Shown: piece by piece, positions 1 through 64,000 of the stretch | Numbering within the stretch: the stretch's first letter is position 1 | How the letters are laid out: each line of letters begins with the position of its first letter | Origin: Amphirosellinia nigrospora | Taxonomy: Eukaryota > Ascomycota > Sordariomycetes > Xylariales > Xylariaceae | Length of the DNA stretch: 64,000 nt | Assembly: GCA_004123355.1 (NCBI GenBank) | Contig: SCHM01000001.1 | Span: forward strand, 6,068,001 to 6,132,000 | Reading direction: 5' to 3' | The notes under the pieces: model-generated | Databases searched by the model: none | The model's input: only the letters and a program-made list of their open reading frames with translations | Told to the model about the DNA's origin: nothing | Translations under genes and position numbers: made by a program

Positions 1-1696
1 CACACTTACGTCCTGGCGCCGAAGTTCTCGCCTGCCGACCCTCATGCGGCGCCAGAGCCTCAAAAAGTGACAGTGACATCCCTCTATATGTTCATGGACG
101 GAACTTGGAGTCTCTAACCTCGGTGCCTGCGGGCGTTGTGTTTGGCATCGGTGGCCTTGAGGGACATATACTAAAATCAGGTACGTTATGTAGCCAGCTA
201 GAGGATCCGTAAATCTAGCTGGGGTACACACGTTGGGCAAGCCGATTGTTCGCGTTGCCCTCGAACCTGTGAATCCCGCAGATTTGGATAAGATGATCGA
301 GGGCTTGAAGCTTCTCGTGCAGAGCGACCCATGTGCAGAGTACGAGCAATTTCAAAGCGGCGAGCACGTCCTATTAACAGCCGGTGAGCTGCATCTTGAG
401 CGATGCTTGACAGATCTGAAAGAACGATTTGCGAGGTGCGATATCCAAGCAGGCGCACCGATTGTGCCATACCGAGAAACTATAGTACGAGCAGAAGAGA
501 TGCGTCCCCCAGCCAATAAAGACTTGGGAAAGGGGCCGTTATTGGCGTCACAACCTCGAAGCAAGTAAACATCACATTGCGGGTTAGGCCTCTACCTCAA
601 AATGTTACCGAGTTCCTTTTGAAGAATGCGGCGTCGATAAAGCGTGTCTATTCCGAGCAACATAGTATAGAGGAAGATGAAACCAGCAAGGAAGAATTCC
701 AAGATCAACATACTGTCGAGATTGACGAGAGCGTCGTTGGGAGTAAAGCTTTGTCTATTGAGGAACTAAAGGGGCAGCTCAAAGAGGTACTAGAAAGCGG
801 CAAAGGTCGCGAAGCATGGAAAGACATCATCGACAATATCGTCGCGTTCGGACCTCAACGCACTGGCCCGAATCTCCTCATCGATGCCACGAAAGACGGA
901 CTGTTCCCCAAGGCCTTCTCCGGAGACAAGATCGAGGGTGATGCGCCACAGGCCGACGAGGCTCTCCAGGCAGCACATTTATGTGACAAGATCACATATG
1001 CATTTCAACTCGCTACTAACCAGGGCCATTGTGCAATGAACCTGTGCAGGGAGTTGGTATCATTATCGAAGATCTTGCAATCACGGCCACAGAAGAAGAC
1101 ACCTCGGCTCGTGATCGACTGGGCAGACTGACTGGAGAGGTTATCAAAACAGTGCAGCAGTCAATTAGACAGGCTTTTTGGATTGGTCTCCACGGCTCAT
1201 GCTCGCCATGTACTCTTGCGAGATCCAAGCCAGCAGTATGTAGCTCCACTTTCTCTCTCTTCATTGACCAAACCTCAAAGTACGTCCGCAAACTAATCAA
1301 ACGCCTCCGAACAGCCGAAGTCCTAGGCCGCGTCTACGACGTTTTAACCCGTCGCCGAGGGCGTGTATTATCCGAGCAGATGAAGGAAGGCACGCCCTTC
1401 TTCACGATCCAGTCCCTACTGCCCGTCGCCGAGTCCTTCGGTTTCTCAGACGATATGCGGAAGCGGACTTCCGGCGCCGCGCAACCCCAGCTTATTTCGC
1501 CGGCTTTGAGGTACTAGACGAAGATCCGTTCTGGGTGCCCTTCACCGAAGATGATCTCGAGGACCTAGGAGAGCTAGCGGACAAGGAGAACGTGGCCAAG
1601 CGATACATGGATGGCGTGCGTCGCAAGAAGGGTCTACTCGTAGAGGGACGGCAACAGCGTGTGGCCGCCGAGAAACAGAAGACATTGAAGAGGTAA
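1..1696 (+). CDS. EFL1: EFL1/RIA1 ribosome-assembly GTPase, C-terminal part (5' end outside window)
   Basis: EF-2-like GTPase that, with Sdo1/SBDS, releases Tif6/eIF6 from the late cytoplasmic 60S subunit. Only the C-terminal half is present; the G domain lies left of the window. Visible landmarks are PIVRVALEPVNPADLDKM, then GEHVLLTAGELHLERCLTDL (the EF-2 domain III signature region), APIVPYRETI, and a C-terminus ending in QQRVAAEKQKTLKR before the TAA at 1694-1696. The acidic insert after about 640 is usual for Efl1. One intron is supported, 1236-1314 (GTATGT donor, ACTAATC branch, CAG acceptor), joining to EVLGRVYDVL. The frame changes near 94, 211, 533, 1024, 1174 and 1493; each is explained by one base missing from a run (for example four G instead of five in AAGGGGCC). 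It converges on IBA57 with 370 bp between the stops. Family assignment is secure; the frame changes are probably sequence errors. Confidence 0.9.
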
Positions 1697-2066
1697 TGGG
1701 TGTAAGGCGTCTAAGTCCGAATTTTGGGCATACCATGATGGGTGAAAAGGGACAATCTCGCAGGCAAATCTCAAGCTTAGAGAAAGATAGAGCTAGAAGT
1801 AATCACGCGGATTACAGCAGGCAGAATAGAACTAATGGCCCGGGAAGCGAACCATATTATCTAGACATACGACGAGACATTTAATACCAAACCGGATCAG
1901 AAGTCGGCTATACGTAGATTGTAAGTTATGAGATGTGAGTGGTGCGGCCAATCGCTGGTATTTGGTAACCGAGTATCCCCTACACCTCCGCCTCTTATCT
2001 AAGGAGACGGACGAATAGTCACACAAAGATGTTACAAGCTAAGGATTACATGGCAACTGTCAGGTT
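1697..2066. other. Convergent 3' intergenic region
   Basis: About 370 bases between the stop codons of EFL1 (+) and IBA57 (-). Nothing protein-like was seen. It must carry both transcription ends. Confidence 0.6.
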
Positions 2067-3422
2067 CTAATGCTGAAGCTTCATAGCCTCCTCATCCAGC
2101 CGCCGACGAAGCCAATCAGGCACGAAGGCTTTCACCTTGATAACCTCCCTATCACCAGTCTCGGCCGTGCCATTGCCATCTTCATCTTTCGTAGGCTGGA
2201 TGACAAATTCAGCCGCCGGGTCGAATTCCAGCGTCGCCGTGTCGTTGGGCACCACGAGATCCGTCATGAGCTGGACACGGCACAGCGCGAGCCCTATGTT
2301 GCCCGTCCCGGCGAGGAACGTGCCCGTGCTGCGCCCCTTCCTGCCGAATCGTCCGATGGTGAGGCCGTGAAGATCCCCTCCGTCTCTGACTACGGAGGGA
2401 GCGCGTCGGGTTGTACTCAAGCGATGCCGGCACAGCCTCGTCCTGGCCGTAGAGCACGCACGGCAGGACACGCTTCCGCACGACCCCGCGATGGCGCGTG
2501 CGGATCGTCAATTCTTGCCCCACGTAGCAGCCTTTCCGGAAGTCGACACCCCCCATGAGATCTATGTTAGACTCCTGCGGCACCGACTGCGCTGGGATGA
2601 TCTCGGCGCTGCCCTCCGGCCCCGCGCAAGTACCGGCGCACGCGTACGCCGTCTCCTCCGTCTTCCCGTCGATGGCGGGCTGTAGCTCCAAGGGCAGGTC
2701 TAGACCCTGTACGTCCAGATCCGCACCGACGGTGAGGACCCGGTAGCCCATGCCGGGGCCCGGAAGTCGGGTATCATGACGGATCGCCCGTCGTTCCGCG
2801 CGAGACCCCCCGCTTCTTGCGCGAGACGACGGAGTCGCCGGTGGCGGCGTCGTTCCAGAGCTGCCACACGCTCTCTCGTCCTCCTCGATCGCGCGGATGT
2901 AAGATCTTGCTGCGCAGCTTGTAGCGCTTCAGGTGTTTCAGCAGAGTCGTCAGCTGGGCGGCGTCGACCTCGATCATGAAGTGCGGCTCGCCCGAGCCCG
3001 GGGGGACCGGGTATACGAAGACATCGTGCAGCACCTTCCCCAGCGCGTTGAGGAAGCCGCAGTAGAACCAAGGAGTCTCCCCGTCGGTTGACCCATTTGG
3101 ACGGGCGTTGGTATTTCCCTCGTCGACGTCGTGATGAGACCCTGCAGGAAATGTGGCGCATCGACCCCGGATATCGATATCAGCCGTCGTGTTCTGAGAC
3201 GGGCGTGTCCCGAGGTCGATGGTGTCGAAGAGCTGGTCTGCTTATTCTCACGGAGGGCGGCGCCGGATGTAAAGCTTCGCCGCTGTCGTCGGGCGTGGCA
3301 TTCGCTTGTTGGTGTTGTAGGGACCGACATGATGCGCAAACAAAGGTAGCTCGGGAGCTAAGAGGCGCTGATGATAGGCCTCGTAATGACCATCTTGAGG
3401 CGCTGCGCGGGAGCGCCTGCAT
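2067..3422 (-). CDS. IBA57: IBA57/CAF17 mitochondrial iron-sulfur assembly factor
   Basis: GcvT-like (aminomethyltransferase fold) protein of the Iba57/CAF17 family. With Isa1/Isa2 it assembles 4Fe-4S clusters in the mitochondrial matrix. The family signature KGCYVGQE is present around 2515-2540 (complement), followed by [14 protein letters not shown]. Upstream, [19 protein letters not shown] is the usual N-terminal folate-binding entry. I chose the ATG at 3422 because its first 40 residues ([18 protein letters not shown] onward) are rich in R, S and A with no acidic residue, as in a mitochondrial presequence; the ATG at 3330 lies in another frame. The C-terminus is [19 protein letters not shown]. 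The reading frame changes about five times, although family-typical residues continue on both sides of each change, so errors are likelier than decay. No intron is obvious. It is divergent from the ECM33-like gene. Confidence 0.85.
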
Positions 3423-4680
3423 TTTGATACACTCTTGATACAAATTCGATCAGAGAAGCTGTAAAAGCTGGTCGGTGGGACAATTCGGCTTCGAAAACTA
3501 CTTGGATGAGTGAGTAAATGGTTGAGGTCGATGGTTGCTTTGGCTTTGGTGTGGGTAGAAGCTACCTAGGTATTTGGCCCACTTTTATCCAGTTAAATAA
3601 CTAGGTACATGGCTACTTGGGTAGGTACTTATAGACGATATACAGAATATCGCACGGCTGGATCTTTTGACGAAGCCACTCTCTAATATGACAATACGAC
3701 GGGGTGTTGTTTGTAGCTGAGAATGCCATTATTATTGTTGTTATTATTATCATTACTGTGTATGGCCTGAGCCCACGAAGAAAGAGGGAGCGAGTAACGC
3801 CAACCCGCCTATCAGACCCAGAGCCGGCCATAGCTCCGGACGGGCTTGTTCAACATGTTTCCAATCAAGTTTGCTTTATTTATTTGCCACTGCACCGCGA
3901 CTGCGGCCTATGAGATAGGCTAAACATTGAGTCTCGGAAGTGGGGCCGCTCCGAAGGCACGGGTCGGCCTTCAATCTTCGGGCGCGGGCTCGGAAGAAAT
4001 ACAAGATGAAGCAAAAGAGGGCATAACTTCTGAGAGATCTAACCTCGGAATACTACTTGTCATCCCACGGAGTTTTCAGCGCGAATGACTTCCGAAGCAG
4101 CATGGGTGTCGCTCAGCCGCAATCATATGCGACCAATCACCTAGATATCCGTCGAATACTGTCTTGGCGTCGTGACCTCTATCAACCCTGGAAGGTTCTC
4201 TCATTTCCTCAAGATCACAATATTAAAGCGAGTAGATGCCGACCTTTTAATACATTTAATGTAAATATTGTTAATACTGATCGTTCCAAGTAGAACATCG
4301 AGGTGGGAAACGAGGTAGCTCTAAATAGGCCGACTTCATTGATTGTGTTATTTCTTGGCATGTACCGATGCCAAGATAGCATTCAGAGGTATACGGCGTA
4401 TCTCGTGAGTCGGACCTATTGAACAACTAGAACAGATAGGCAGGCCAGGCTGCAGCGCAGGGTTCCATAATGCTTGAATTTTAAATGAAGCAATTGCCAT
4501 GCCTCAGCCCAAATGGAAAACCGAGCATTTCAACTTTTCCCTCTCATAGGAACCAACGCGCCAATTTCTGAAAAGTTGAAGAAAGTGTCAGCCCGATATG
4601 AGTGTGTCCCCCATGAAAACAATAATGAAACTCTAATGCTGATCTGCGATGGGTAATGTAGATTCATTCTCGTGTCCCAG
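3423..4680. other. Intergenic/5' region between IBA57 and the ECM33-like gene
   Basis: Holds the divergent upstream regions of both neighbours. There is an (ATT/GTT)n stretch at 3728-3755 and one CTACCTAGGTA word at 3562-3572. The missing first exon of the ECM33-like gene should lie between about 4300 and 4680, but I could not identify it. Confidence 0.5.
3728..3755. repeat. ATT/GTT trinucleotide microsatellite
   Basis: Imperfect ATT/GTT/ATC repeats of about 28 bases in non-coding DNA. Confidence 0.8.
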
Positions 4681-6025
4681 AGCTTCAACATCTCGAGCCA
4701 GCAAGACATCGATGCCAGCAGCACTGGCTTGGGGCAATGCAGAAGCATTGATGTTTCTATCAACATCATCTCGCCTACCACCGATCTGGTTTTCCCACCT
4801 AGACTCTTGGTGAACAACATTTCAGTCGTCGATCCCCCTGAATCGCTAAATTTGGATCTTAACGCAACCGACATCGTACAGGATCTGTTCGTCAACGATT
4901 TGAACAATGGATCCTTGGTTTTACCCATCCAAGTCGACTGGCGCAATGGCACTATACAATCCGTTGCTTTGATAAATAGTATCCGAAGTCAACGTACAGG
5001 TGATCAAATGAATGTGTACGGTAATGGGACCCTTTACTGGACTCAGGTTAGTCGCTGATGTCTTTTTGCGCCCCCATGGAATATGTCTCAGAGACGTGAA
5101 TTACCTTAATGGGCATCCTCTGCCCCTCAAGCTCCCAAAACCCCAAGTAATTCTAAGTACAAGTGAAAATCGTTGACCCCAGTGTTGTTATATCTAGGTC
5201 AATGGCTCAAAAACCACATTGCATAATATGACGTACCTGAGCGTAATGCAACTTCAAAACACTCAACTGATTTCGTCGACTTTGAGATCAGTCACGGACT
5301 TGGAAATCGACGGTGGACTCGTAGACACTGATCAATTATCCTTCATCAATAATAACGCAACATTCAGAAATTTCGTCTTGCCTTTCTGGTCCGCTCAATC
5401 ACTCCAGGTCGAAGGTAACCTCACGGTTCAGCACAAGATCAACCTCGACAGCGACGAGGATCCTACCGGAGGTACCTCAGACTTCGACTGGGATGTCGAA
5501 TTTGTCCATGGCAATTTTGCCGTACAAGACTGGTCTAATGCGACTCTGAGACTGCCGACATTGACGGAGGTGCGCAGGGAATTGTCGATACGCGACAGTA
5601 ACAATAGCACTTTCGTATTCTCAGCACTGACTAGTGTTGGAACTCTAACAATGGAGAACAACGGCGAGAGTATCTTACCTGGTGATTTTCGAAACCTTCA
5701 GTTTGCGGATTCCATTCAGCTCAAAGGCAAAATTGACACGTAACTACCCCTCATTCAACCGAAAAGGAATTCAGTGCTAACGGCTCCCAGTTCTTCATTC
5801 GGTAATTTGTTCCCATCTCTGAAACATGTGAAGAAAACGATCACCATTGAGGCATCGAATAGCGACTTCAACTGCTCGTTCTTGGCTTCCCAGCAAAGCC
5901 AGGGACTGATCGGCAAGCTTAATTGCAACGGACTTGATAGCGCAGCTACGAAGAGTGGTGTATCACGGAGTATTTGGATTGGCATTAGTGTTGCTGTTGC
6001 AATCGCTGTGTTATCAAATTCATGA
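4681..6025 (+). CDS. ECM33/SPS2-like GPI-anchored cell-surface protein (5' exon not found)
   Basis: Resembles fungal Ecm33/Sps2 cell-wall proteins built from receptor L-domain-like leucine-rich beta-helix repeats. The segments QDIDASSTGLGQCRSIDVSI, LRSVTDLEIDGG and TLTEVRRELSIRDSNNSTF alternate hydrophobic strands with many N-glycosylation sequons (NIS, NAT, NGT, NNS). The last about 25 residues form a hydrophobic tail after a Ser-rich stretch, as expected of a GPI-attachment signal (SIWIGISVAVAIAVLSNS). Two introns are well supported in phase: 5047-5197 (GTTAGT...CTAG) and 5740-5790 (GTAACT, GCTAAC branch, CCCAG). An AG at 4679-4680 probably ends a further intron, since no signal peptide is visible in the open frame starting at 4672. 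Unlike most genes here, the 4681-6025 portion needs no frame change. The role in cell-wall integrity is inferred from the family. Confidence 0.7.
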
Positions 6026-8226: not shown

Positions 8227-8555
8227 AGGGGGAGCGAGAATATGATGAAGACGATGGCTGACCATCAATTATGAGAAGGCCGCGAAGATAGTCCAGCACT
8301 TCCCGAAAAGCCATGCAGGGAAGACGCAATCGTAGATACCGGCTACAGACACGAGTTCCTCGAGCAGATCAAAGAGAAATTCCTCGGTATGTCGCACCCC
8401 CCAGACACCGCTGGCATCTCCAAATTGAACCCCCCAAACAATGGAAAGAGAATATGACCGAGGTGGAAGTCGATCACACGGAATGGGAATTTCCGGAGGA
8501 CTTCGGCCGGGGCCCAATTTACACTATTGACGAGGCTGAGGAGGAAACACGGTGA
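8227..8555 (+). CDS. Orphan coding fragment, unknown function (broken frame)
   Basis: A short region with protein-like composition in three successive frames. Near 8260-8310 it reads LTINYEKAAKIVQHFPKSH, near 8335-8440 HEFLEQIKEKFLGMSHPPDT, and near 8454-8555 EVDHTEWEFPEDFGRG, then an acidic tail (DEAEEETR) and TGA at 8553-8555. Frame changes near 8315 and 8450 would be of the kind seen in the recognised genes nearby. I do not recognise the family. It may be the last exon of a gene whose upstream exons I cannot see, or the remnant of one. The start given is only a lower limit. The gene-like evidence is its amino-acid composition alone. Confidence 0.35.
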
Positions 8556-16152: not shown

Positions 16153-16460
16153 CTTCTGCTGTCTGCTGCTGCTGTGTGTTGTTGATATGGTGTGGGTGAG
16201 TGGAAGGGTGACGGCGAGAAGGCTGTGGAAACCATTTTGTATATGTTGATATCCACACGGACTATTGTTATAGTGTATGTGTGTTTGTGTTATTATGTCG
16301 TGTTTTGTTGTAATTCTTGTGTGAGTCAGGCACCGATGTCCGGTCAAGGCAGCAAAGGCAGAGAGGAGCTTGATCCCTTTTGTATTAAGTTCTGTGATGG
16401 CTCAACTCGTGCAGGGATCTCGGGTCCGTCCAAGGTTGTGCGGTGTGCGGGATGTTGTCG

Positions 16461-22185: not shown

Positions 22186-22202
22186 CCCCCCCCCCCCCCC
22201 CC
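22186..22202. repeat. Poly-C tract (17 C)
   Basis: Seventeen consecutive C residues in non-coding DNA, the complement-sense counterpart of the G run at 13795-13812. Confidence 0.95.
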
Positions 22203-24854: not shown

Positions 24855-26714
24855 TTACTGTAACCGTAGCTTCGTCTTCTTCCTCTTGCCACTAACCTCC
24901 CTATGCTCCTCGATATTCAGCAGCGCCTCCCGTTTCTTCTCGCTGACTACCTTCATGTGGTCCCGGATGAACCGTGTTTCCAAGTTCACGCCCTCTTCCT
25001 TCCATTCTTCCATCTGCTTGCCGCGACCCTTTCTTCTATATTGTGAATCCGCTCCACATCTCGTTGCCCGACAAACGAAACACAGTCACCTTTACGACCA
25101 GCTCGTGCTGTTCGACCAACCCGGTGAATGTAGTCGACTGCTTCTTGTGGAATGTCATAATTGACAACCAATGACACTTCAGGTATATCTAAACCACGAC
25201 TGGCCACATCCGTAGCCACTAGTACGCGGGCCGCCTTGGCTCTAAATCGCTCTAGATTTGACGTCCTTTCCCGTTGGGGTAGCTTTGAGTGAAGAGAAGT
25301 AACGCGATGATCCAAGAGCCGTAGTAAGTGGTGAAGATCTAGAGGAAGATGGTTAGTCTGGAGTTTGTTTTGAGAAAATAGTTTTTTTGGTGAGTATTGG
25401 GCAATTAGAGTAAGCACAGTTGAGAGTACACGTACACTGGGCTGTTGACGCTCGGTTGCAGAATATTATGAGTGACTTGTCTACATTTGCGTCGGTAAGA
25501 AGGAATGCGTGAAGATAGTATTCCTTGTGTGTGACGTTGACTTGCAAATACAACTGCCGTAGTGTATCTGGGACTGCTAGTGCTTCTATGTCTACTTCAC
25601 ACACATAAGCCCCTTTCTTGCCGGGCTTAGCCGGCATGTCCTTTAAAGCTCTAACCTCGGGGGTTATAGTGGCCGTGTAGAGTAGTGTTTCTATTAGATA
25701 TTAGAAGACGTTGTCCACAGTTTTAGATGTGTACTCATCGGCGCTCGAGCCTTGTGGCGTGACCAGAATGCTGAGTAGCGGGAAGTGAAGGGAATATCAG
25801 CATCACTTACGCCTTTGGGCCGAAGGGGGGAGTACTCCAAGAACTACCTCTAAGTCTGGTAGCATACTCCCAGGTCCATTTGCAGCAAGTATCCGGTCTG
25901 CTTCATCGAGAACAACAAACTTTGTTCGCTTTAGGCCAGCAATCGTATCTTCTCCGGATGATTTAATATGATCAGCCAGGCGGCCAGGCGTCGCTATTAC
26001 GATATGTGGACGCTGGGCCAGTTCTATTGCTTGCTGACGCATGTCTGCTCCCCCAGTGATAAGTAGTGTCTTTAGGGATCTAACTGAGCCTATGGCTTTG
26101 ACTTGTTGTTGAATTTGTAGAGCAAGTTCTCTCGTAGCAGTAAGAACGACAGCATATATCGAGCTTGGGTCTTGAGACCACAGCTGAAGAATTGGAGCCA
26201 TAAAAGCCACTGCATTTATGTCAGACAGAGTTGCGATTACGGTTATTCGGGGGCGATATCTAGACGCACCTGTTTTACCAGAACCTGTCCTGGACGAGCC
26301 AATTACATCACGACCTTCTAGGATAGCAGGTATAGTGAGCTGTTGAATACGAGTAGGCCGGTGTATGGCCATATTTTTTAGGCTCTGGGATAGCCATTGC
26401 TTCAGATTCAAATCTTGAAAAGACAAAGATGCGCGTCCACTCTCAACGATTCGAGTCTCGGCGACAGTCACGGGTGTAGGGACAGCCTCTGGAGCCTGAG
26501 CCGCAACCGTCCTCGGCTTCACTCTTGATGGCACATTCACCGAAAATGAAAGAACGTCCTCCTTGGATGTGGAGTCACTAGACAGCTTACGCCGCTTGCG
26601 AGAAGTAACATTGTCAAGGGAGTCAGACTCGGGATCGGAATCGGACTCAGAACCGGGTTGGCTTAAGATGGCATGTTCCGTATCACTTTCGGGAGTTGTA
26701 ACTGACGATGACAT
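24855..26714 (-). CDS. DBP8: ATP-dependent DEAD-box RNA helicase Dbp8
   Basis: DEAD-box helicase of 18S rRNA/small-subunit processing in the nucleolus. In order: an acidic/serine-rich N-terminus; Q-motif ([11 protein letters not shown]...PTRIQQ); motif [20 protein letters not shown] (Ia); ATPGRLADH (Ib); DEAD in [17 protein letters not shown] (the SAT position is TAT, as in other Dbp8); [19 protein letters not shown] (V); [15 protein letters not shown] (VI); and a basic C-terminus [11 protein letters not shown] before TAA at 24855-24857. [19 protein letters not shown] after DEAD is Dbp8-specific. Three introns fit in phase: 26210-26269 (GTGCGT), 25691-25810 (GTAAGT) and 25339-25435 (GTACGT). 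Only one frame change is needed, near 25023, explained by one missing C. It is divergent from the MKK gene, 3.4 kb away. An assignment to another Dbp is unlikely. Confidence 0.93.
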
Positions 26715-27920
26715 TGCAGGGTTCTTATTGATGCAAGATGGAATATCTGAGACAAGCTAGGCCTAGTCAGATGATTGCGATGAAATGCGGTTGTGGGTGT
26801 AGATCAGATACACTGCATGCATTCGTGGTCGTGAAGCAACCGGCTCTGTTGAAAAAGATAATTTTTGATAATGATGTTAGCGCTTTTTGCAGGGGATGAG
26901 CTTTGCTTGGTGGGTGTCTTGGAGGGTGGGTATCGAAGTTAAAATCTGGGCCAATGGAAGATGGAGTTGCAGACCCACTTGGTTCTTTAAGCGCGCGTCT
27001 CCTTCATATTGTTCCTCATGCAGCAACGATTGACTCTGTGACATATAGACATCTGCAATGAATTTGTTGCACCATTTTACAAAATTGTTTACGCAACGTG
27101 ACACTCATGCAAAAGGGGAGAATAGGTATACGGCTAATGTAGTGGTCCTGTTGAGGCCAGCCCGTTGAGTACTACTGCAGCCAGTCGCTGTCCGCCCGAG
27201 TAATAGGCAGTACAGCCAAGACTTTGCTCCTTAAATGTGGTACTGCGACAGGCAAAAGCTTGTTACTTGAGCACGAACGGGATCACGAGAACTTCCGACG
27301 ACTGCTTCTTGATGCGTCATACCTTGGTCAAGCAGCGGTAACCAAGATATGGCAGTGTCAGGCAGCTTTCATCCCGTCTCTATCAATCATGTGGGAGATA
27401 ACCTGACCGTCATGACCCTCCATCTTTTACATCTTCTTGTATGGTGCCATATATTGCAAGGCGCATAATTCTAAATCATCGCTCCCCTATAAGCGCAAGA
27501 TAACACACAACACTCCCCGTTGCTCTTCAAAAGGTGGTCATATCTTTCCCTCGCATGGACATGCACATGCACATCCCGTGGACCCCAAAGCTGAGGTCAG
27601 CCTCCAAATCCTCCAAGTCAACACTCCTATATTAATCATTACAACACGGCTTTTTGGGGCCTTTCGTTTGCATCACGTCTTAGCATTCGAGGATCGCCCT
27701 GCTTTTGATAGGGTGGTGGTGTAGCGTATCTCCTTGCCTCTCATCTCTTGGTAGTGAAGAGGGCACGCGACATAACGCCGTTTCATTTGCGGGCATGCAG
27801 ATGCATTGCATGGCCACTAGCAGCAGAACAATCCCTAACATATATCATAGAACGACTCCTCCGCTTACCAAGGCATTATTATTAACTAACCAACTATGCG
27901 CGAAAAAGGAGGAATGATGT

Positions 27921-30161: not shown

Positions 30162-31775
30162 ATGTCGACTCCCATACCCATGATGTCGTCTTCTCCTGCA
30201 CCGCTTCGGCCAGCTCTCGGCGGCCGCCCTGGTGGTGCCCGAACCCCAAGATTAGGCTTGGCCATCCCCCCGTCACCCAACGTTAAGCCAGTTGGCACGG
30301 CTATGGCTGGTGGCCCAGCCCGGCCTCAACTTACTGTCCACGTCGCAACCCCCATGGGTAGCACTGTAGCTCCGTATGAGCAAACTCGGACATCTGTCCA
30401 GCCGGGGCAGTCGGCGAGTGGTGGCAGCGAGAGTAGTGCTGCCCATTCACGGTCTGGCAGTTTTGGGCCACTTGATGGAAGAGCAAGTAATCCTACCTCG
30501 GCGGGTTCTCAGTTCTCAGCACTCTCTTTTGCGTCGCAATATGGCATTGGATCACGGCCGCAGGGTACCCCCGACCCAAATATCTGCGGTCGGATCTATC
30601 TATTCAGAGAGAAGCGAAGGAGGCGTTGGGATGGAGCGAGACGGAAGCATGCACGGTCTAGAGAGTAGTTTCGACAAACTGGCGTTAGACAAAGCTAGAA
30701 ATGCTGATGTTGATGATTTGGATGACGATGAATGTTGGAGGATCGCCAGTATGGAAGGCCGTATCATCGAGCTCGGTGGTCTCGGTGAAGGCGCTGGAGG
30801 CGCAGTCACGCGATGTCAACTCAAAGGGGGGAGAGACAATATTTGCCTTAAAAGTCCGTTCTCTTCCCCGCCCTTGCCTTTTTGAGGACTGATGCTGACA
30901 TGCATGCAGGTGATCACCACCAACCCTAATCCAGATGTAAAGAAGCAAATCGAGAGATTAACTTCAACAAGGAGTGTGCATCGGAGCATATCTGCCGCTA
31001 TTACGGAGCTTTTGTCGACAACTGCTACCATCTCCATTGCTATGGAGTTTTGCGAGGGCGGATCTCTCGACAGCATCTATAAAGAGGTCAAGAAACTCGG
31101 CGGACGGACAGGAGAGAAAGTTCTCGGCAAGATCGCAGAGGGTGTGCTAGGCGGTCTCACCTATTTACACGGAAAGAAAATCATACACCGTGACATTAAG
31201 CCCTCAAATTCTACTATGTCGTAGCGGCGAGGTAAAGCTTTGCGACTTTGGTGTGTCTGGCGATTTCGGAACCAAGGGTGAGGCCAATACATTTATTGGC
31301 ACCAGCTACTACATGGCACCAGAACGGATCACAGGTCAAAGCTATACTATCACATCCGATGTCTGGTCGACTGGAGTTACACTCCTTGAGGTGGCACAGC
31401 ACCGATTCCCATTCCCCGCTGATGGAACAGAAATGCAGCCTAAAGCCGGCCTCATAGATCTTTTAACATATATTGTTCGGCAATCAATACCGAAATTGAA
31501 GGATGAGCCGGAAGCAAACATCTTTTGGAGCGATGGCTTCAAGTACTTTATAGAGTGCTGGTAAGTCATGAATAACCTGATTTGTTCCTATGAAGGGAAC
31601 TACAGAATAAAGAGCTCACAAATATAATAGTCTCGAGAAAGAGCCACTTCGCCGAGCCTCTCCATGGCGAATGCTTGAGCATCCCTGGATGGTTGAAATG
31701 CGCAGCAAACGAGTCAACATGCAGAAGTACTTGTCGCAAGTATGGGGATGGGACGAAACAGAACCAAAATCATAA
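30162..31775 (+). CDS. MKK2: MAP kinase kinase of the cell-wall-integrity pathway (Mkk1/2, MkkA-like)
   Basis: Dual-specificity kinase between Bck1-type MAPKKK and Slt2-type MAPK. The N-terminal about 200 residues are disordered and rich in P, G and S ([20 protein letters not shown] is typical of fungal Mkk1/2). Kinase landmarks are [11 protein letters not shown] (glycine loop), FALKV (lysine), [23 protein letters not shown] (catalytic loop), [11 protein letters not shown] (DFG), and an activation segment [16 protein letters not shown] with the expected S/T sites. The C-terminus is [18 protein letters not shown]...QVWGWDE. Two introns fit: 30854-30909 (GTCCGT donor, GCTGAC branch) and 31561-31630 (GTAAGT). 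The frame changes near 30570, 30830, 30960, 31015 and 31210. It converges with CWF23. The SGDFG...[10 protein letters not shown] segment separates it from Pbs2 and Ste7 types. Confidence 0.92.
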
Positions 31776-42575: not shown

Positions 42576-44385
42576 ATGGCTTCCTCCTCGGTAGGCTCTG
42601 GGAGTTTGACCTCAGAGCGGACGCCTCTTATCCGGCAAGACACCGGTCGCCCTCGGACAGCCCGCAGCGTCACATTCAATGCGAACCCCGTCTCAAGGAC
42701 CATCGATCCCGAACCGTCGTCTCTGAGCTCCTCACCAAGTTCTACGTCCGCCCTCAGCCATGCGCGAGCTACGGGTTCCTCACTCGCGGGAAGCTTTCCA
42801 AGTGGACCACCGCCGATGCTTTCAGCCCTCAATAATCGGTTGCGCCGCCGGAACAGCCATGGGTCTATGTTTACTGCGCTCCCCCACGATCTTGCCAAAG
42901 ATGGGCCCGCAGCGGAGCTCTAAAACTGCGCAAAAGCTGAAACTACTTCCAAACCCCGAGCTCGAAGAGGCGGATCAAGATGAGGAGAGTGGCAGAGATG
43001 TTTATTCACAATACACGCGTATCAAAGACCCTATGGCCAGGCGTGATGCCGCCAGGTTGGGCAAAGCTGATCGGAGAGACTCCCACGAGTGACGGCATAC
43101 TGTACGGCGAACAAGTACCAGATGGATAGCTTAATGCGATTTTTGAAAGGCCGGGGCAAGTCAAAGGGTGCGAATCCTAAATTGATCGACGAGTGCATCT
43201 ATACACCATATAACTACGCTGGGGGAGCCCCGCCGACGGGGAGAAGCGTTCAAAGTGCAAAGGGATCGACCTGTGTATACACACGAAAGGCGGCATTCTA
43301 CTGGCCAACTGGAGGCGGAAGAGCACTCTAACACATACCAGCGCGAGTCCCTAATAGACTTCGAGACCGAAGAACAATCGCAACACGGTCAAGACCCGGA
43401 ACATACTTATAACACTGGCCGTGACGCCAATAACAACTTGGCCTACCCCGACGAAAGTGCCTTGGATAATACATCCTCACATACGGCAGATGCCGACTTT
43501 GATACCCAAGTACATACGCCCGAGGTTTTCCTCTTTGATTACGGCGTCGTAGTGATATGGGGAATGTCGCTCGCGCACGAGCAACGCTTTCTGAAAGACA
43601 TTGTCAAGTTCGAGCTCGAGAAGCTAGATCCAGATGATGTCGAGACAGAGTGTTTCAACTTTTATTACACGCGCGATTACCAAGCCCGGATATACAATGA
43701 TTTCATCACACTACGGGATAAAAGGAACTACATGTCTAAACTGGCAATTTCACATGCGCTCGCGCAAAGCGTCAAGGTATGCCTACGTGCTCGGGATGCT
43801 TTCTTGTATAGATTCACTAACGAGAAACACAAAACATAGACCTCGCTCTTCGAGGAGTTGATAGCATCAACAATAGACTCATGCAAGGATATCCCAACGC
43901 AGATAGCCCTGGCAGGCAAAATATCATTGTCGCAGACACAAATCAACATGCAAATAGGCGAGCTCTTCATTTTACGCATCAACATCCACCTAAACGGCAG
44001 TGTATTAGATACACCAGAGTTATTTTGGGTCGAGCCGCACCTTGAGCCCGTCTACCAGGCCGTTCGCAGTTATTTGGAAATGGACCAGCGCGTTGGTCTA
44101 CTGACGGAGCGTCTCGACGTGATCGCTGACCTGCTCACTGTTCTCAAGAACCAGCTGAGTCACGGGCACGGAGAGATGCTTGAGTGGATTGGTAAGTGCT
44201 TTCTTTAACCCCCTTTTGATGCTGTTACTATACATATTATCACGAATGCGGGATTGGAAAATGAACATTCACTACGAGGGGGAATAACTGCTAACCAAGT
44301 ACAACTAGTCATCGTTCTCATTGCCGCCGAGATCCTCGTTGCTGCTATCAACATCATCGTGGATCTCTACGCAGGTGTTGATTAG
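42576..44385 (+). CDS. RMD1: Rmd1/Rmd8-family protein (DUF155)
   Basis: Member of the DUF155 family (yeast Rmd1/Rmd8, S. pombe Sif2/Sif3, mitochondrial RMND1). Family-typical parts: a disordered Ser/Pro-rich N-terminus beginning MASSSVGSGSLTSERTPLIR; VTAYCTANKYQMDSLMRFLK; the hallmark EVFLFDYGVVVIWGMSLAHE; ECFNFYYTRDYQARIYNDFI; KLAISHALAQSVK; GKISLSQTQINMQIGELFIL; and ELFWVEPHLEPVYQAVRSYL. A C-terminal hydrophobic helix (VIVLIAAEILVAAINIIVDL) probably spans a membrane. Introns 43777-43839 (GTATGC) and 44192-44308 (GTAAGT) join in phase. Frame changes occur near 42925, 43090 (one G missing from GAGGTG) and 43225. The stop is TAG at 44383-44385. Loss of Rmd1 blocks sporulation in yeast; the molecular role is not established. 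It converges with the NHP10-like gene. Confidence 0.9.
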
Positions 44386-47306: not shown

Positions 47307-49051
47307 ATGTCTCTCAATATACCAATGCCCCAATGCCGGGCTCTTCAAACAAGGGTACAATAAGTATGTTTACAACCCCACCATCTAGAACCGCATCGAG
47401 GCAGACAGATACCTAACCACCGTCTAGCTACGACTCGGAAGATGGCGCCGTCTTACGGAATATCGATGCTTGCCGAGCTATCTCCTCCACCGTCCAGACC
47501 TCCCTGGGCCCCTATGGCCGGAACAAGATCGTCATCAACCACCTACAGAAGATGATCCTGACCTCCGACGCGCCACTATTCTAAGAGAGCTCGATGTCGT
47601 TCACCCCGCCGCTAAACTGCTGGTCATGGCGAGTCAACAGCAAGAGGCAGAGATGGGCGATGCCACCAACTTGGTCATTGTCCTTGCTGGCGAGCTCCTT
47701 AAGAAAGCAGAGGACCTGCTACGCATGGGCCTGAACACCGCCGATATCGTCACCGGCTACGAACGCGCCCAAGCCTTTGCGCTAGAAGCCTTAGAGGATA
47801 TGGCCGTAGACAAAGTTGAAGATATCCGGAACCATGAAGAATTGAGCAAGGCTATCCGGACAGTCGTGGCAAGCAAGCAAAATGGAAACGAGGAAGCCCT
47901 CGCTAACCTCGTTGCCGGAGGCTGTTTTATCTGTCATGCCCAAAAACCCTGTCAATTTCAACGTCGACAATGTTCGAGTCGTCAAAATCATGGCGGAAGT
48001 CTAGAGCAGAGCCGAGTGGTAAAGGGCATGGTTTTCCCCAAGGAACCTGATGGATCCATCAAGAAGGCAAAGAAGGCTAAAGTCGGTGTCTTCTCTTGCC
48101 CTATCGACACTAGTCAGACTGAGACGAAAGGAACCGTCTTGTTGCACAATGCTAAAGAGATGATGGAATTTTCCAAAGGCGAGAGAAGAGCAACTTGAGA
48201 CGGCTATCAAGGAACTACACGACTCGGGCATAAGAGTAGTCATTGCCGGCTCAACAGTAGGAGAGCTCGCATTGCACTACCTCAACCGTTACGAAATTCT
48301 TGTTATCAAGATTCTTAGTAAATTTGAGCTGCGGAGGGTCTGCCGCGTAGTGGGCGCCACCCTCTAGCAGACTGGGGGCACCTATGCCAGACGAGATGGG
48401 ATCAGTCGACATCGTCGAGACACTGGAGATTGGTGTGATCGTGTTACCGTTTTCAGACAGAAGACGAAGCGACGAGGACAGCTACCCTGGTCCTGAGAGG
48501 CGCCACTCAAAACTTCCTCGACGATGTAGAAGGGCAGTTGACGACGGTGTGAACGTCGTTAAGGCCATAACCCGATTCGCGCCTGGTGCTGGTGCTGGTG
48601 CAACAGAACTGCAATTAGTTGGACGCATACAAGCGTTTGGCGACAAAAACTTCTGGCCTGCCACAATACTCCATTCGAAATACGGAGAAGCATTTGAAGT
48701 TATTCCGCGAACAATAGCAGAGAGTGCAGGTCTTGATGCTACGGAAGTACTAAGCAAACTATACACAGCACATCATAAGAAGGACGACTGGACAACTGGT
48801 GTTGATATCGAAGTGAGTATGATTTTTCGCCCGTTTATGACTTTTTAACTAATCTCTATTAGAATGACGACGGCACAGGCACATTGATGCTAAGAAGAAT
48901 GGTATATTAGATTTATGATCAGCAAGTCGTGGGCAATCAAGCTAGCCACTGAGGCAGCTCGGACTGTACTCTCGGTTGATCAGATTATAGTCGCAAGACA
49001 AGCAGGCGGCCCCAAGCCCCAGGGCCCAACCCCAACTGGGATGAGGATTAA
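47307..49051 (+). CDS. CCT8: T-complex protein 1 subunit theta (CCT8)
   Basis: Theta subunit of the cytosolic chaperonin CCT/TRiC, which folds actin and tubulin. The ATG at 47307 starts MSLNIP. Exon 2 begins YDSEDGAVLRNIDACRAISS and contains QTSLGPYGRNKIVINHLQKM (nucleotide-binding region), AAKLLVMASQQQEAEMGDAT (GDAT where many chaperonins have GDGT), LAGELLKKAEDLLRMGL, GGSLEQSRVVKGMVF, EDGVNVVKAI-like residues in VDDGVNVVKAITR, and AFEVIPRTIAESAGLDATEV. The C-terminus is VDQIIVARQAGGPKPQGPNP before TAA at 49049-49051. Introns 47364-47427 (GTATGT) and 48813-48862 (GTGAGT) fit. This is the most frame-broken gene: changes near 47322, 47331, 47573, 47927, 47997, 48185, 48335-48660 (several) and 48885. 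AATAAATAAA lies about 70 bases past the stop. Confidence 0.92.
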
Positions 49052-51624: not shown

Positions 51625-51641
51625 GTGTGTGTGTGTGTGTG
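51625..51641. repeat. (GT)n microsatellite
   Basis: Eight GT units in non-coding DNA. Confidence 0.9.
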
Positions 51642-55380: not shown

Positions 55381-55818
55381 TTCGAAGAGTACCAATAGCT
55401 CACGTTTGACGGTGCCTATATACTGGAACTCACATATTCGAATTAAAAACGCCACTCATCCTTCCTATTCTTTGAGACTACAAGGCTTGTCGAGTAACAA
55501 CTACTAACCAACTAGGTAACTCCTATCCCGATATCCATAGACGAATTATCGTGAGGCAATGACTACCTTGGTGGGGGGCTGTTGTGAACCACACCACCAG
55601 AGCACGCAATATAGCATAATCAATTGCGATGATTTGGAGAGACCATATATGGAACTGGATTGGTAATTAAAGAATATTACTGCCGGAAATAATGGATCAG
55701 TTGCTATGGCGTGCGGTTAACTTAACAGAGGTTGTGTAGAATATCCATAGAATATACAGTTTCTTACTATGATATATTAGAAGTTCGTGTACCTTTTATT
55801 AATTGCTATATGTTCATG

Positions 55819-57268
55819 ATGAGCCAAAATGGTAGTATCCAAAACCAAACCCCGATCAAAAGGGTCGCTGTGATCGGCGCGGGCATCAGCGGGGTAGTAT
55901 CAGCCGCCCACCTTACCAACGAGGGCTTCGAGGTAGCAGTCTTTGAGAGAACGGGCACGATAGGTGGCGTCTGGTGTTACGATGAGCGAGTCGATCAGGA
56001 TCCGCCGTTTCCGAATACTGCTCCGGGCCAAGATTGGACAGACGTTGAGACGGAAGGCCTGAGCGCCGCGGAAGCCTTGATTTTACATGGGCCTCCGGGA
56101 CCCTGTTACGCCGGCTTGAAAAATAACGTCCCGACGTCGCTCATGAAGAGCAGTCTTCTTGCTTGGCCGGAGGGAACAGAGGAATTCATCGACCAAGGTC
56201 GCATCGTTAGTTATTTGGAGGATATAGCCAGGTTGCACCACGTTACGGAGCATGTACAATTTCATACGCGAGTGGAGAGCGTCACGAAGCCGGTGGGTGA
56301 TGCACGGTGGACGGTTAAAACAAGTACGCTCCGGGTGGAAGAAAACAAGTTCTCAGTCTTGAAAAGAGACGAAAGCTTTGACGCCGTCGTGGTAGCGAGT
56401 GGCCATTACCATTTACCTTTCGTCCCGGATATCCGGGGTTGGCGGCTTGGAAACGCCGCTTTCCGGACCGGGTCATGCACTCCAAAAGCTATCGCACACC
56501 GGAGCCTTTCAGGGGCAAAACCGTTCTACTCGTGGGTGCGGGCGCTTCATCCTTGGACATCGCTCGGGAGGTTGATACCCTCGGAGGCAAAGTCTATCAG
56601 AGTAGACGCGAGTCGAAGTATGATCTTACTGCAAGTCGTCTCCCAGCGACAGTTAGGAGAGTTGCGATGGTTGCCGAGTTCATCATAGATGACATCAATG
56701 TGTCGCAAGCCCAATGCAACTGGGCGAATGCAGGGGCAATCCCGGGGAAGATTGTACTGGAAGATGAAACAACACTGGATAATATAGATTATGTGGTTAT
56801 TGCCACGGGATACATTACATCATACCCATTCCTGGGGGAGTTAGAGCAGCCATCGGTGGCGTGGGAAGACGCGGATGAGACGACAGTGATCACGGCTGAT
56901 GGTTATACGACTCACAACCTACACAAAGACGTCTTTTATATTCCTGATCCTACGTTAGTCTTCATTGGTGTCTCGCAGTTAGTTTCGACCTTTCACTGTT
57001 CGACTTCCAGGCGAGGGTGATGGCAAAGGTGCTCGCCGGCCACGTCCGGCTACCGGCCCAGTCTGTTATGAAGGCGGAGCAGAGAGACCGCAAGGCTCGT
57101 TTCCAGCCCGGAGACAGGTTTCACGCCCTCCTTCTAGGGGAGCAGGCTTACATTGCCGAGGTTCTGACGTGGGTGAATGCCGATCTGACGAGAAATGGTT
57201 TGGCCCCCATGGAAGGTATGGATGCGAAGTGGCTGATGGCCTACGATAAGTTTAGGGCCAACCGTTGA
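55819..57268 (+). CDS. FAD-dependent monooxygenase (FMO/dimethylaniline monooxygenase-like)
   Basis: Flavin-dependent monooxygenase of the FMO group, using FAD and NADPH to oxygenate a small molecule; the substrate is unknown. The first Rossmann motif is RVAVIGAGISGVVSAAHL, about residue 15. FERTGTIGGVW follows, then FDAVVVASGHYHLPFVPDI, FPDRVMHSKSY (FxGxxxHxxxY position, with Asp instead of Gly), the second dinucleotide fold VLLVGAGASSLDIAREV, and YVVIATGYITSYPFLGELE (the ATGY motif). The C-terminus is GMDAKWLMAYDKFRANR. I prefer the ATG at 55819 (MSQNGS); 55810 and 55816 are also in frame. It appears intronless. Two frame changes, near 56436 (four G, five needed) and 56992 (three T, four needed). 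The gene stands alone in a gene-poor area. Confidence 0.88.
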
Positions 57269-57896
57269 CAGAACCATCTTGATCTGAGGTGGCGGAGGAT
57301 CGTTCAGCGTTATTAATAGATTGAGACATCAAATGAGACTAGGTGAGGCTTATCGCTGTAGAGCACTTAGGACGTCGGTATTTAAAATTGTCGATCAGAT
57401 TCTAGTGGCCGATGATGCACACATAGGCGGGTGGACTAGTGGTGCGCCTCCCGCATTGTAGCGTAGTGTAGCTCGGTACCTAGGATCCTCATTCCTACGC
57501 AATTATATGTAAGTGAGAACTGATGCCTGGCTTGCGGGCATCGAGCGGGCTTGGCAGCGCTGTTCAAGTGTTCAAGTCGCGATGTGAATGAAATGGCCAT
57601 TACACGTGTTAGTGGACGTGAGGATCAGATGCATGGTCCTTTTTCTTCTTCTCTCAGTATACCTTCTACCACCGTGCACAGTGAATTTCGAGTTGGCGTA
57701 AATAGAAAAGTCTGACAAAGTTCCACTAGTAGAGAGGCTATGTGAGGCACTTGCATATGCAATGCAAAGCTCAGCTGCCTATGTAGCTGTCATGAAAGGT
57801 AATTTTAAGATTTCTATTCACGGTTGGGTTCGCCCCACTGACAAGAAGCCCTAAGATTATGGTACCGACACTGGATGAGATGGAGATCGTGATAGT

Positions 57897-57923
57897 CCCC
57901 GTTCCCCGTTCCCCGTTCCCGTT
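57897..57923. repeat. (CCCCGTT)n tandem repeat
   Basis: Three perfect 7-base units followed by one contracted 6-base unit (CCCGTT). The contraction is of the same kind as the homopolymer losses in the genes. Confidence 0.85.
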
Positions 57924-59779
57924 GACAAGTCAGCTTACATAAGAGAGAATAATGCCTAATGGATGGCCATACTACTAGTGTTGAACTACACAAAGGGTAT
58001 AAATGCTCAACTTTGTAAAAGGGGGCGCCTTAAGCCACAGAATGACCACACTGTCAAATTGATTTTGAATGCGTGTAGTTTGTATTCAGGGACCTCCTAT
58101 CATATGCGGGGCAGCTTTTGCAAAACAGTGGTAGAGACAACCTGCGTTTAGAGATTGCTCTTTAATTCTAATAGCCCCTGGTCTATAGCCCTGTGTTTTG
58201 TACCGAGCCTGTGGGTTTTCTCCGGTTGGTTGAACTGAACGACTATCTCAACCTCCGCGCTATACAGTATAAGCTACCTTCTAGGTAGTGTTGTGCAACC
58301 GAACTGGTCACAAACCTTTTGAAGCTGGAGGAATACTTATAACTGCTACATGTGGTTTGGCTTCAGGCACTACCTACTCTAAGCTTGGATAGACTATATA
58401 ATTCGAATGTCTGTCTAGCCTCACCTCTTTGTCCCTTCATGCGGCGTCTTCAAGTGACCGAACTTTTAGCTTATTAGAGCGAATATAGGTAGTTTCGTTC
58501 AGTAGAAATACCGAGATTGTATCATGACGGGGTAGCCCAGTAGTGTTTGTGGTAATATGATAATGGCGGGTTGCTCGCTTAGCTGGTTGTAGTAGAAATT
58601 TACAGTGCTCACAAGTAGATACCTACAGAGAGGAGGTACTTACTGTACAAAAGCGTTATTTACGTTTTTTTGACAGAAGAGGACTCTTCTTGATCCCTGC
58701 AACCACGCCATGGACCCTCAAAAAGGGTCTGTGCGAGAGTGCCGGGCGCATGGGCAGGGGTTGCTAACCTCTAGCCCTATCTGTTAATTTCAGTCTGCAA
58801 GTATATATCAAGTATTCTGACTCTCTGTGCCAATACCTCTAACGAAATGAGCGGCTATTAAAATGCTAGATATGTTGTGTAATGCATCTACACAACTCAT
58901 AGTAACCCGCACCAATCAGTAACAGAGTGACTGAGATGAGATAGCAGCTTGACAGTTGTGGCGAAGCGGGTCTCTGGAAATACATATATATAGGTGAAGT
59001 CATATAGGATCCAGGATGCGGTGTGGGGCGTACCAAGTCTAGACTATGCCAATTTTTACCAACTGCTTTCTAGGTACCTGGGTTTGTACCTCCCTAGGTA
59101 GTCTAAACTTGCTAGGTAGTGTATCGATCTTGACAGTTACCTACAAATTATCTGGGAGGTACTAAGGAGTTGCTTAAGTACGTAGCGTAGAAGAGGTAAA
59201 GGTATTATGAAAAGATACCTAGACAAGTATATGATGATATGTAGACAGATCTTTAAGACCTAAACGTCCACGTACATAGCAGATATACATATAGAGAGAG
59301 GGGTTCTATATGTACACTATAGTGATTGGGTTTATACCACGGTACTATGTTGAACCTGGTAGCATTTCGCCTGTCTTCTGTCTCACTGGCATATACAGGT
59401 ACATGAAGTACACTAATGTATTATCTAGTCTAATGTACGACCGGTGATAGGAAGGGGGGCACTTAAACGAGATACATCAAACTACCCACATCAGGTACTT
59501 TCAAGGTTATTTGGTACCTGTGTCTGTGGGACACGGGAATGGACGTATGTCCTTTCCACGTTCCCTCACCTTTAATTAGCTTGGGATCCCTCGGTTCTGT
59601 ACAAGCACGGTACTCCCCGAGTATTCTAACATCGGATATCCAACTTTTCCTCTCAGTCCTTCACTTACCATACACTAGACAGACATAGATCAATTGATTG
59701 TAGGTCATGGATGTCTGTGTCTCGCCTAATTTCTTGTCACTTGTCTTTGTCTTCTTTCCCATTGTCTCGGCTCTTTGAG

Positions 59780-59812
59780 TCAGCAGCAGCAGCAGCAGCA
59801 TCACCATCACCA
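59780..59812. repeat. (AGC)n/(ATC)n compound microsatellite
   Basis: About seven AGC units followed by CATCAC-type units, in non-coding DNA. Confidence 0.85.
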
Positions 59813-60711
59813 TATTCTCACTGGCTTCTCCTACACTACTTGAATATATTGTGACATCGTCAGAGTCTCTGGTAGAATCATTAGCCTGCCTCGTTATAAC
59901 TGGACCTTGCTCCACGTCGAGAAGTCGGTTCCCATTCACACCCTGACGGATCCTACCCAAGCAGGCCAGGCGACAGGGCGGTGCATGTCCAATATATCGC
60001 CGCTGACTGGGGGGTCGGATGAACAAAGACCAGGGCAATCTGCGCCCAGCAGCCGAAGAACCGTACCGTAGTAGAGAAGACGGCCTCTCCCTTTTCTGGG
60101 GTTCTCGACCCGAAATCCATCCCGATTGAAACCTCTCTTCCCTTTCCTGACCAGATACAACGCCTATCAGTATAGACTTGCCTGCATAACCCGAGTCAGA
60201 CGAACTCCAGCTCATTCATCATTTCGCGTGCGCCTATATGCTGCTGGTGCTTCGAGTAAGCCCAAGCCCGAGCCCACTCACTCGCTCATGCGATTCGTCA
60301 CCCAGTACTATCACTACCCCTTGGCTTGAGTGATACCTACCTTAAAGTGTTACCCAGGCGCCGTCACATAGTCGCCATACAGCCGCCACCGTCGACCTGA
60401 CTAACGCGCACCCATATAATCGCACAGACACAGAGAAGAGCATCCTTCCCTTCGAAGCCACACCATCCCTCGACCTGCTGAGCGTCGGGACATGCGCCAT
60501 CGTCCTTCGCCAGTCTTTTTGTTACAGCATTGAGAATACCACCCTTTGAAACAGCCTTCCAGGGGGACGCCCAACGAGGTGTGACACAGTCCCTACCGCG
60601 CATCCTCATATCTATTTGCTGGGACAACCCCACGCATTTTGGTACCTCATTCATCCCTCTTTTCCCTTCTTACTAGTATACACATCATACCTTGTCAACA
60701 CCTATCGCCAC

Positions 60712-63700
60712 ATGTTTGGGAGTCGATCCTCGTCCAAGGAGCACCGGTTTCTTGAGGGACAGGTTTCGGCCCTGCGGGAACTCAACCTGTTTAACCCCTC
60801 CGACTCACGTTCGCTCCGCTCTCTGTCCAAAGAAACAAGAAGACCGAAGCAGTACCAACAGTGGGCCATCTTATACAGAAAAGAGTAAGTGTTGCGCTCT
60901 TCAACGCATTGGACTTTTATTATCGCCACCGGATACCTTGCACCACTTAAAACCTATCGGCGCTTTCGTCTTGTTTTATCTATGGTTGCCGCTGCTGACT
61001 CGCTTTACCCCTCCAGGCCATCTCCTTCAGACACCTTATCGCCACTCACCTAATCGCGCGCCGTCTCATCGATCTTCAGCCTCTCGAGGCTCGGCAGCTT
61101 CCAGGGACACCGTACGCCAGAACCCCACAATGTCGGGCATGATGAACACGGATAGAGGTCGAAACAGGCGAGAAAGAACCTTTGTGGGAAGTGAATGCGC
61201 TGTCTGCGAGGAGCCGCTGGAACATACGCTGCGTGGGGAGCGAATACTCCAGTTTTCTTGCTCGCACGTCTCTCACGAAGCTTGCTTTTATGAGTTTATT
61301 AAAGAGTTCGATTCTCAATATTGCCCGTCATGTAATGCGCCTTTGCATTTGGATACCAGTCGTGGGGGCAATGTGTTGGATATCGGTAAGCTACATGGAT
61401 ACTCTCGATCGCTGATTAGTACATGAGAGTTAACGGTTTCAAAAAGAGAAAATCACGAGCATGGTGCGCTCTACATCTATAAGCGACAACAGATCAATGA
61501 CTGCCCCGGCACCTGGGACTTGGGAGGGTCAGCCTGGACGGCCACCGAGTGGAGAGTCGAATCCGCGGTCTTTGCAAAGCAATGGCCGCGAGAGTGCAGC
61601 ACGAAGCCATACTCGAGAAGGGCGGGATGGATATGCCAGCGGCCGAGGCCACGGTCGTAGCGATAGTGAAGCCACAGGAGTTGCGTCTTCTGGTGGCTAC
61701 CCAGAGACCACACAGAGCGGACCACCTCCCCGCCGTCATGACTACGATTTACAAGCTATGGAAACGACACCAGGCAGCCCAAGGGCTATTACTCGTAACC
61801 CGATCCCGGCACCTTCCGTTGCAGTACGGTCAGAATTCCCAACTATAAATCGCTCGCGACAACAGCAGACTCTTACATGTCTTATAACGGTGGAGGTAGC
61901 GGACAGTAAATGGAGACCGGACCCCGAGGATCTCGGATCGATAAACCCGGCACCGCAGATGCGGGTTGAGGAAGCGTTCAACCCACCGAGACCGCCATCC
62001 CCAGCTCGGCCTACTCAACCACGTTTCTACCCTTATGAGCCACCAGGAGTCTTAGAGGAGATGACTGAAACTCTGCGAAACAAGGTGGATCATTGGCATG
62101 GCCTTGAATTTAATCGGTTAGCTATTGATATATATCTTGCCCCAACGTAGGTATAAGGCTGTGGCTAACGAGAAGTAGGTTTGGCAAGCTTCGGCTCTAC
62201 GGCACTCTACGGGTCGGAAAGGATAAAGTTTCATGGCAGGAACTGGAGTGTTTCTTATTTGCCGAGATGCTCATATGTGTAAAGGAGAAGAAACTCCCGC
62301 CCCACGCCCAACCGTGGGACGAAAATGGAATGCCACGAAAAACAACGCGGTGTACTCTGAAGGGCTCGATTCTTATAAAAAAGCACCTCAATGAAGTGAC
62401 GGAAACTGGCATGGGTAAGAAAGACTCTTTTCACCACTTAAACTGCAACAATATCTGACAATATGGGTAGTTGATGAGAATATTCTGACACTCAGTCTTT
62501 CTGTTGCCGAGCTTCCGCAGTTTCACTTGCGCTTTGATAACCGCAATCAGTTGAAGCTTTGGCACCAAGCTCTGCTCGATTTGAATGCAGTGGAGAGATC
62601 GCCAGTCAGAAGCCCAGGATTTGAACGTGATCGAGCTGAAACATCGGAAACGGATGATGAAGATTGGGCTCGAGGCACTCGTCCTCAGCGAGTTTCTTCA
62701 CTCGCTTCGTCATGGGGCGGTCCTAAGTCCGTCACTACAGCACCAACTGAATACACGACGTTCGCTAGGAACCCGTTATCATCCATTCATGTACCGATTG
62801 ATGTAGTTGTCGTGGTGCCCATCTCATCCTCGATGCAAGGTGTGAAGATCAACCTCGTACGAGATGCATTAAAATTCATGGTCAACACACTCGGCGAACG
62901 TGATCGAATGGGCCTGGTTACTTTCGGGTCAGGCGGAGGCGGTGTCCCTATCGTCGGAATGACGACAAAGGCATGGCAAGGCTGGAACAATGTCCTCAGT
63001 TCAATCAAGCCTGTTGGACAGAAAAGTCACCGTGCAGATGTCGTGGAGGGGGCTAATGTTGCTATGGATCTGCTGATGCAGCGTAAATACAACAATCCAA
63101 TCGCGACGATCATGCTTATTAGCGATGCATCAACCTCTGATGCTGATAGCGTCGACTTTGTTGTCTCACGCGCTGAAGCCGCCAAGTAAGACAATATCTC
63201 TACCGCTGCCAAGTTCTATCGCTAACTAGAAACAGAATTACTATCCACTCATTTGGGTTGGGAATGACGCATAAACCAGACACAATGATTGAGTTATCTA
63301 CTCGAACCAAGGCATCATACACCTATGTTAAAGACTGGATGATGCTACGGGAGTGCCTGGCCGGCTGCCTCGGTTCCATGCAGTCTCTGTCACACCAGAA
63401 TGTGAAGCTTAAGCTCAAGCTACCAGAAGGCTCCCCAGCGAGGTTTCACAAGATCAGTGGTGCACTGCAGATCACCAAACGCGCCACAGGCCGGGATGCA
63501 GAGGCTTCACTAGGTGATTTACGATTCGGCGACAAGAGAGACATTCTGGTGCAACTGGTAATCGTACCCGACACTCATCCCAAGAACAGCTTCCTCAAGA
63601 CCCTTGGGAGACCATTGTGTCTGGACTGGAGGCACTGGGCGGGCCAATGGATCATGACGATCAAAGAGCAATCTCCGTAGAGGAGGTACCTCTAATTCAA

Positions 63701-64000
63701 GCAGATCTAGTCTGGGGTGATATCTTACGAGATGGCACAATGATGCATCTGCCAAGACCATCTTTGCTGGCCATCACAATTCTTCCCGCTGTCCATAATT
63801 CAAAGAAGGCTTCTTGGGCGAACAACCCCCGATTCCTCCACACCCGCACATAGTTCAGCGACGAATGGAATTATTAACGTCAGACATGCTCACTCGAGCT
63901 CTAACCCTTGTCACCAGGGGCCAGCATGAGCGCGCTCACACACTATTGAATGAAACACGCTCGATTCTGAAGGGGCTTGGGAAAGGAGGATTACCACCGG
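60712..64000 (+). CDS. RING-PH-VWA domain protein (Ste5/Far1-like architecture), 3' end outside window
   Basis: Large signalling-type protein. Exon 1 (60712-60884) begins MFGSRSSSKEHRFLEGQVSA. The RING is CAVCEEPLEH, FSCSHVSHEACF, CPSCNAPL (about 61196-61344). A disordered S/P/G-rich linker follows, then a PH-like domain split by an intron (FGKLRLYGTLRVGKDKVSW, ECFLFAEMLICVKEKK, FHLRFDNRNQLKLWHQALLD). A von Willebrand A domain comes next (VPIDVVVVVPISSSMQGVKI, RDRMGLVTFGSGGGG, TIMLISDAST, HSFGLGMTHKPDTMIELS); its metal-site DxSxS reads PxSxS. Introns fitting in phase: 60885-61016, 61386-61446 (GTAAGC), 62117-62178 (GTTAGC), 62415-62470 (GTAAGA) and 63186-63235 (GTAAGA). The frame changes near 61053 and after about 63580. 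RING, PH and VWA in this order are also those of yeast Ste5 and Far1; scaffold function is inferred. Confidence 0.85.

Follow-up and report, generated by a model that had tools for sequence, protein, structure and literature searches.

Frame breaks in conserved genes of Amphirosellinia nigrospora almost certainly reflect residual consensus errors of the genome assembly

The frame breaks found in conserved genes of a 64-kb window of the Amphirosellinia nigrospora genome (bases 6068001-6132000 of contig C1, the whole stretch of DNA that was analysed) are almost certainly residual consensus errors of the assembly, and the genes are predicted from the sequence to be intact in the organism. Short single-base runs would have been written one base short, with an occasional base gained, and intact genes would then appear shifted; the missing bases would be present in the reads, and the most likely source, as we infer the technology, would be a long-read assembly with incomplete polishing. 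Errors of this kind would occur throughout the assembly, with a detectable shift in about every 2 kb of conserved coding sequence. A sequence-only reading of the window had proposed uncorrected, deletion-biased consensus error, and this was borne out by the breakage of the only theta chaperonin subunit, the lack of in-frame stops in the codons matched, net losses across the genome and base losses in 5S rRNA genes. The breaks which that reading had described were confirmed in part, the claim being amended to genome-wide errors that are possibly denser in the window.

The genome to which the window belongs is 48.1 Mb in 11 contigs, and its rDNA spacer resembles those of Xylariales fungi. The window has a G+C content of 45-55%, no tRNA genes were identified in its 64 kb using ARAGORN, and a frame scan of the same 64 kb gave a longest stop-to-stop frame of at most 320 codons; a separate tRNA search listed 58 genes. 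In long ORFs the codon bias amounted to about 0.1 nats per codon, which was too weak for finding frames, and homology was used instead. Mitochondrial COX1, intended as a high-coverage control, had no match in the assembly, and the mitochondrial genome seems to be absent from the 11 contigs. A 10-kb stretch on contig C6 (6000001-6010000; L028) had a G+C content of 13.9%, compared to approximately 50% for the rest of the genome, and a longest frame of at most 69 codons; this is perhaps an AT-rich repeat block or a centromere.

The CCT8 gene (chaperonin theta; 47423-48690, forward strand), identified by profile and structure-search matches, was aligned using a frame-aware aligner to a reference assembled from pieces of theta chain 4v81_H (which we take to be the yeast chain) taken from the structure-search alignments. 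Identity was observed at 254 of 445 matched codons and ten frame switches were placed, of which seven were of loss type (near 47570, 47990, 48359, 48435, 48464, 48529 and 48679) and three were gain-like (near 47914, 48181 and 48642), with net sizes of -1 in six, -2 in one and +1 in three. The set of switches was unchanged at shift penalties of 9, 12 and 15, while eight of the ten persisted at a penalty of 20, and the full model scored 1212 compared to 660 without shifts; the shifts themselves are firm. The score was 1168 when losses only were allowed, in which case each of the three gains was replaced by a double loss and an additional residue, and 1149 when gains only were allowed; as the latter costs just 19 points more, the sign of the shifts is fixed weakly by CCT8 alone. 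The alignment agrees with sites read earlier at 47573, 47927 and 47997, while those at 47322 and 47331 precede the reference and were followed in the three frames by eye only. The insertion near 47927 had been regarded as one of few exceptions, however, and gain-like shifts proved not to be rare in CCT8 (three of ten), each of them possibly a double loss.

CCT8 is an essential gene and encodes a subunit of an obligate complex. Members of the Cpn60/TCP-1 family were found at ten loci in the genome, including that of the window. The best NCBIfam model at nine of the loci was alpha, beta, gamma, delta, epsilon, zeta, eta and GroEL-type HSP60 once each, with theta in the window only, the pieces classified being mostly partial and hence below the whole-protein cut-off, and the tenth locus (C1:9737921, profile positions 156-364) lying outside the classification. 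There was no second DNA match for CCT8 in the genome, and the intact copy elsewhere that is expected of a spare-copy pseudogene was absent in this search, which was carried out for CCT8 only.

These results bear on real decay, in which the window would be degenerating, either as a spare copy or because the strain is a mutator that lacks mismatch repair, and the genes of the window would be pseudogenes with small deletions. The number of neighbouring genes with frame breaks is what decay would produce, and a block of adjacent genes with broken frames is likewise seen in the pseudogenes of a duplicated segment; unlike in such a segment, there is here no second CCT8 and there are no nonsense codons. 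Since theta was found in the window only and CCT8 had no second DNA match, decay of a spare copy is strongly disfavoured. Conserved residues flank both sides of every CCT8 switch, which also argues against decay, as does the finding of no in-frame stops in 872 matched codons of the CCT8 and EFL1 pieces, a count that is not independent, and is supportive only, because the alignment scoring penalises stops. Decay is further opposed by the genome-wide occurrence of breaks, with other essential families hit, and by 5S rRNA copies that lose bases without any substitution (both described below), and it is considered very unlikely.

The 3' part of EFL1 (1-1720, forward strand) was found in all three frames. 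The Pfam EFL1 domain was detected in 520-1131, and PDB matches showed that successive frames map in order along one chain (5anb_K). Losses were placed by alignment at 1018, 1179 and 1494, close to sites that had been read at 1024, 1174 and 1493, and frame changes read near 94, 211 and 533 are consistent with the three frames as followed by eye. A gain/79-nt intron/loss cluster at 1232-1316 and a 48-nt intron call at 715-762 were both ambiguous in the alignment.

Twelve genes of the window had been named as frame-broken, and this was upheld for four of them (CCT8, EFL1, MKK2 and FMO), while the other eight are without a confirmed switch. In the protein kinase gene called MKK2 in that reading (MKK2-like; 30886-31561, forward strand), Pkinase profile positions 56-128 and 129-240 were matched in two frames which meet at 31208-31209, leaving no space for an intron. 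Flavoprotein profile matches in the FMO-type gene (55726-57017, forward strand) occurred in two frames that overlap around 56430-56442, in keeping with the switch proposed at about 56436, while a second proposed site at 56992 is without domain support (no family in 56948-57265). The DEAD and Helicase_C domains of a DEAD-box helicase (named DBP8 in the same reading; 24989-26756, reverse strand) lie in different frames, with an intron possible between the halves, and the two DUF155 halves of an RMD1-type gene (43186-44205, forward strand) share a frame, separated by a gap of intron size. At most a single domain was found in each of IBA57, CWF23, the PHRF1-like gene, the oxidoreductase and the RING-PH-VWA gene.

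Shifts outside the window were called by pairing adjacent profile fragments whose frames differ and between which no intron fits; unclear pairs (one aldehyde dehydrogenase, two kinesin and one HSP70) and intron-like pairs were not counted as shifts, and one of 20 HSP70 rows (C11:146619) and eight of 14 tRNA-synthetase rows were left out of the counts. Six shifts were detected in 12.2 kb of CCT genes (5 of 9 gene groups), six in 11.0 kb of HSP70 genes (4 of 9) and five in 9.8 kb of kinesin genes (3 of 12), giving 17 shifts in 33.1 kb, with 12 of 30 gene groups hit and 18 without a shift. The net length change was exactly -1 at 11 of the 17 shifts and exactly -2 at two, with no clean one-base gain; the remaining four had looser lengths (-31, -4, +5 and +23) with a frame change equal to -1. 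By frame, all 17 shifts outside the window were therefore of loss type, as against seven of ten in CCT8. No shifts were found in 11.7 kb of aldehyde dehydrogenase genes, where only 11 of 62 candidates were scored and intact genes are favoured, or in 3.6 kb of class I tRNA synthetase genes, for which six of 14 rows were entered. Repeated frame changes, some of which may be introns, were also seen in a giant AAA gene, presumably midasin, 24-40 kb to the right of the window (C1:6152001-6172000; L015-L016). The pieces of this gene were worth at least seven frames.

By the same fragment-pair method CCT8 contained three shifts in 1.6 kb, an excess with P = 0.014 compared to four families (CCT, HSP70, aldehyde dehydrogenase and tRNA synthetase) and P = 0.05 compared to CCT, HSP70 and kinesin. 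The finer alignment gave ten shifts in 1.27 kb and a longest shift-free stretch of about 115 codons, while all of the other seven CCT genes except zeta contained open matched pieces that were 276-494 codons long, as measured by a method that differs from the CCT8 alignment. An ORF-length profile over 144 kb did not show the window to be clearly worse than its left flank, and homopolymer length spectra were alike in the window and in 110 kb taken elsewhere. Errors may form a patch that is denser in the window than in the rest of the assembly.

Dispersed 5S rRNA genes were scattered over at least seven contigs (L031-L063), outside the rDNA repeat, and were of several sequence types. A total of 33 were compared, with a length of 120 bases in 11, 119 in 12, 118 in three, 117 in two, 116 in two and 115 in one, as well as one of 127 and one of 132. 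All 33 were aligned, and each of the 22 genes that were not of 120 bases was compared to the best 120-base copy. Seven of the 22 had no substitutions and no insertions but 12 deletion events, of which ten lay in runs of 3-5, although such runs hold just 161 of the 960 bases of the templates (binomial, 8e-7); two of the 12 are five bases apart in one gene (L047) and are possibly one event, and when distinct events were counted once, four of six lay in runs (0.009). The commonest loss, of one C of five, was present in eight of the 22 copies, including three that were identical, and could reflect natural variation. The other 15 genes had 2-22 substitutions, and three of these with insertions (L060, L062 and L063) look like relics. 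Copies L031-L034 and L035-L037 were otherwise identical and differed in whether a loss was present. Two rDNA copies compared over 1.7 kb showed three indels, one of 4 bases and two of a single G in a G run, with no substitutions. The small-subunit rRNA genes on contig C10 (L029:437-1724 and L030:1743-3027) were approximately 1.29 kb long for about 637 model positions, an excess of about 650 bases of the kind expected from rDNA introns.

Base losses in both coding and non-coding genes would also arise if the DNA letters were right and insertional RNA editing restored the missing bases in nuclear mRNAs and 5S rRNAs, at thousands of sites. Such editing is difficult to reconcile with 5S copies that are otherwise identical with and without a loss, with the 18 of 30 comparison gene groups in which no shift was detected or with the gain-like shifts in CCT8. 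We know of no precedent for insertional RNA editing in nuclear fungal genes, and the probability of this explanation is considered to be vanishingly small.

The sequence surrounding 16 protein switch sites, including those near 94, 211 and 533, was searched for homopolymers and shared motifs. A run of at least three was present within 8 nt of 11 of the 16 sites (background 51%), a run of at least four at four sites (background 12%) and a run of at least five at two sites (background 2.6%); the excess is weak partly because the position of a switch is accurate only to some codons. The proposed association of losses with short runs was clear in the 5S genes, where it held for ten of 12 events, and weak at the protein switches, with a modest excess in the expected direction. 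No hexamer was shared by more than two of the 16 sites, while random sites share 3.1 on average, and a slippery heptamer was found near none of them, with about 0.6 expected by chance.

Recoding, in which the ribosome would change frame at many sites and the genes would work as written, is compatible with the resumption of the conserved protein on either side of each switch. Programmed ribosomal frameshifting is pervasive in Euplotes ciliates, where many genes are, as here, readable only by changing frame. Unlike in Euplotes, no motif is shared between the sites of the window, the two shift signs both occur in CCT8 and untranslated genes (the 5S rRNA genes) also carry deletions. The sharing of hexamers, lower than between random sites, argues in the same direction, the missing heptamer being a weak point given the number expected, and recoding is regarded as extremely improbable.

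The breaks are thus best read as consensus errors, an explanation supported as far as the sequence by itself permits. In two reports that deal with long-read-only assemblies, leftover homopolymer indels, mostly of a single base, are described as breaking the frames of intact genes and inflating pseudogene counts (PMC8812927; PMC12007338). Single-base indels and broken frames of intact genes are features shared with the present assembly, while those reports concern bacteria or small genomes and the genome here is a 48-Mb fungal one, with losses in short runs too and some gain-like shifts. The observation is almost certainly an ordinary assembly artefact. Obligate-complex single-copy subunits, together with dispersed 5S rRNA genes compared with one another, can be used to diagnose consensus error without reads. 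Gene counts, as well as calls of pseudogenes and of gene loss, made from this assembly are unreliable, because 12 of 30 CCT, HSP70 and kinesin groups outside the window are shifted without space for an intron, and gene lists for A. nigrospora derived from it are not to be trusted until it is corrected.
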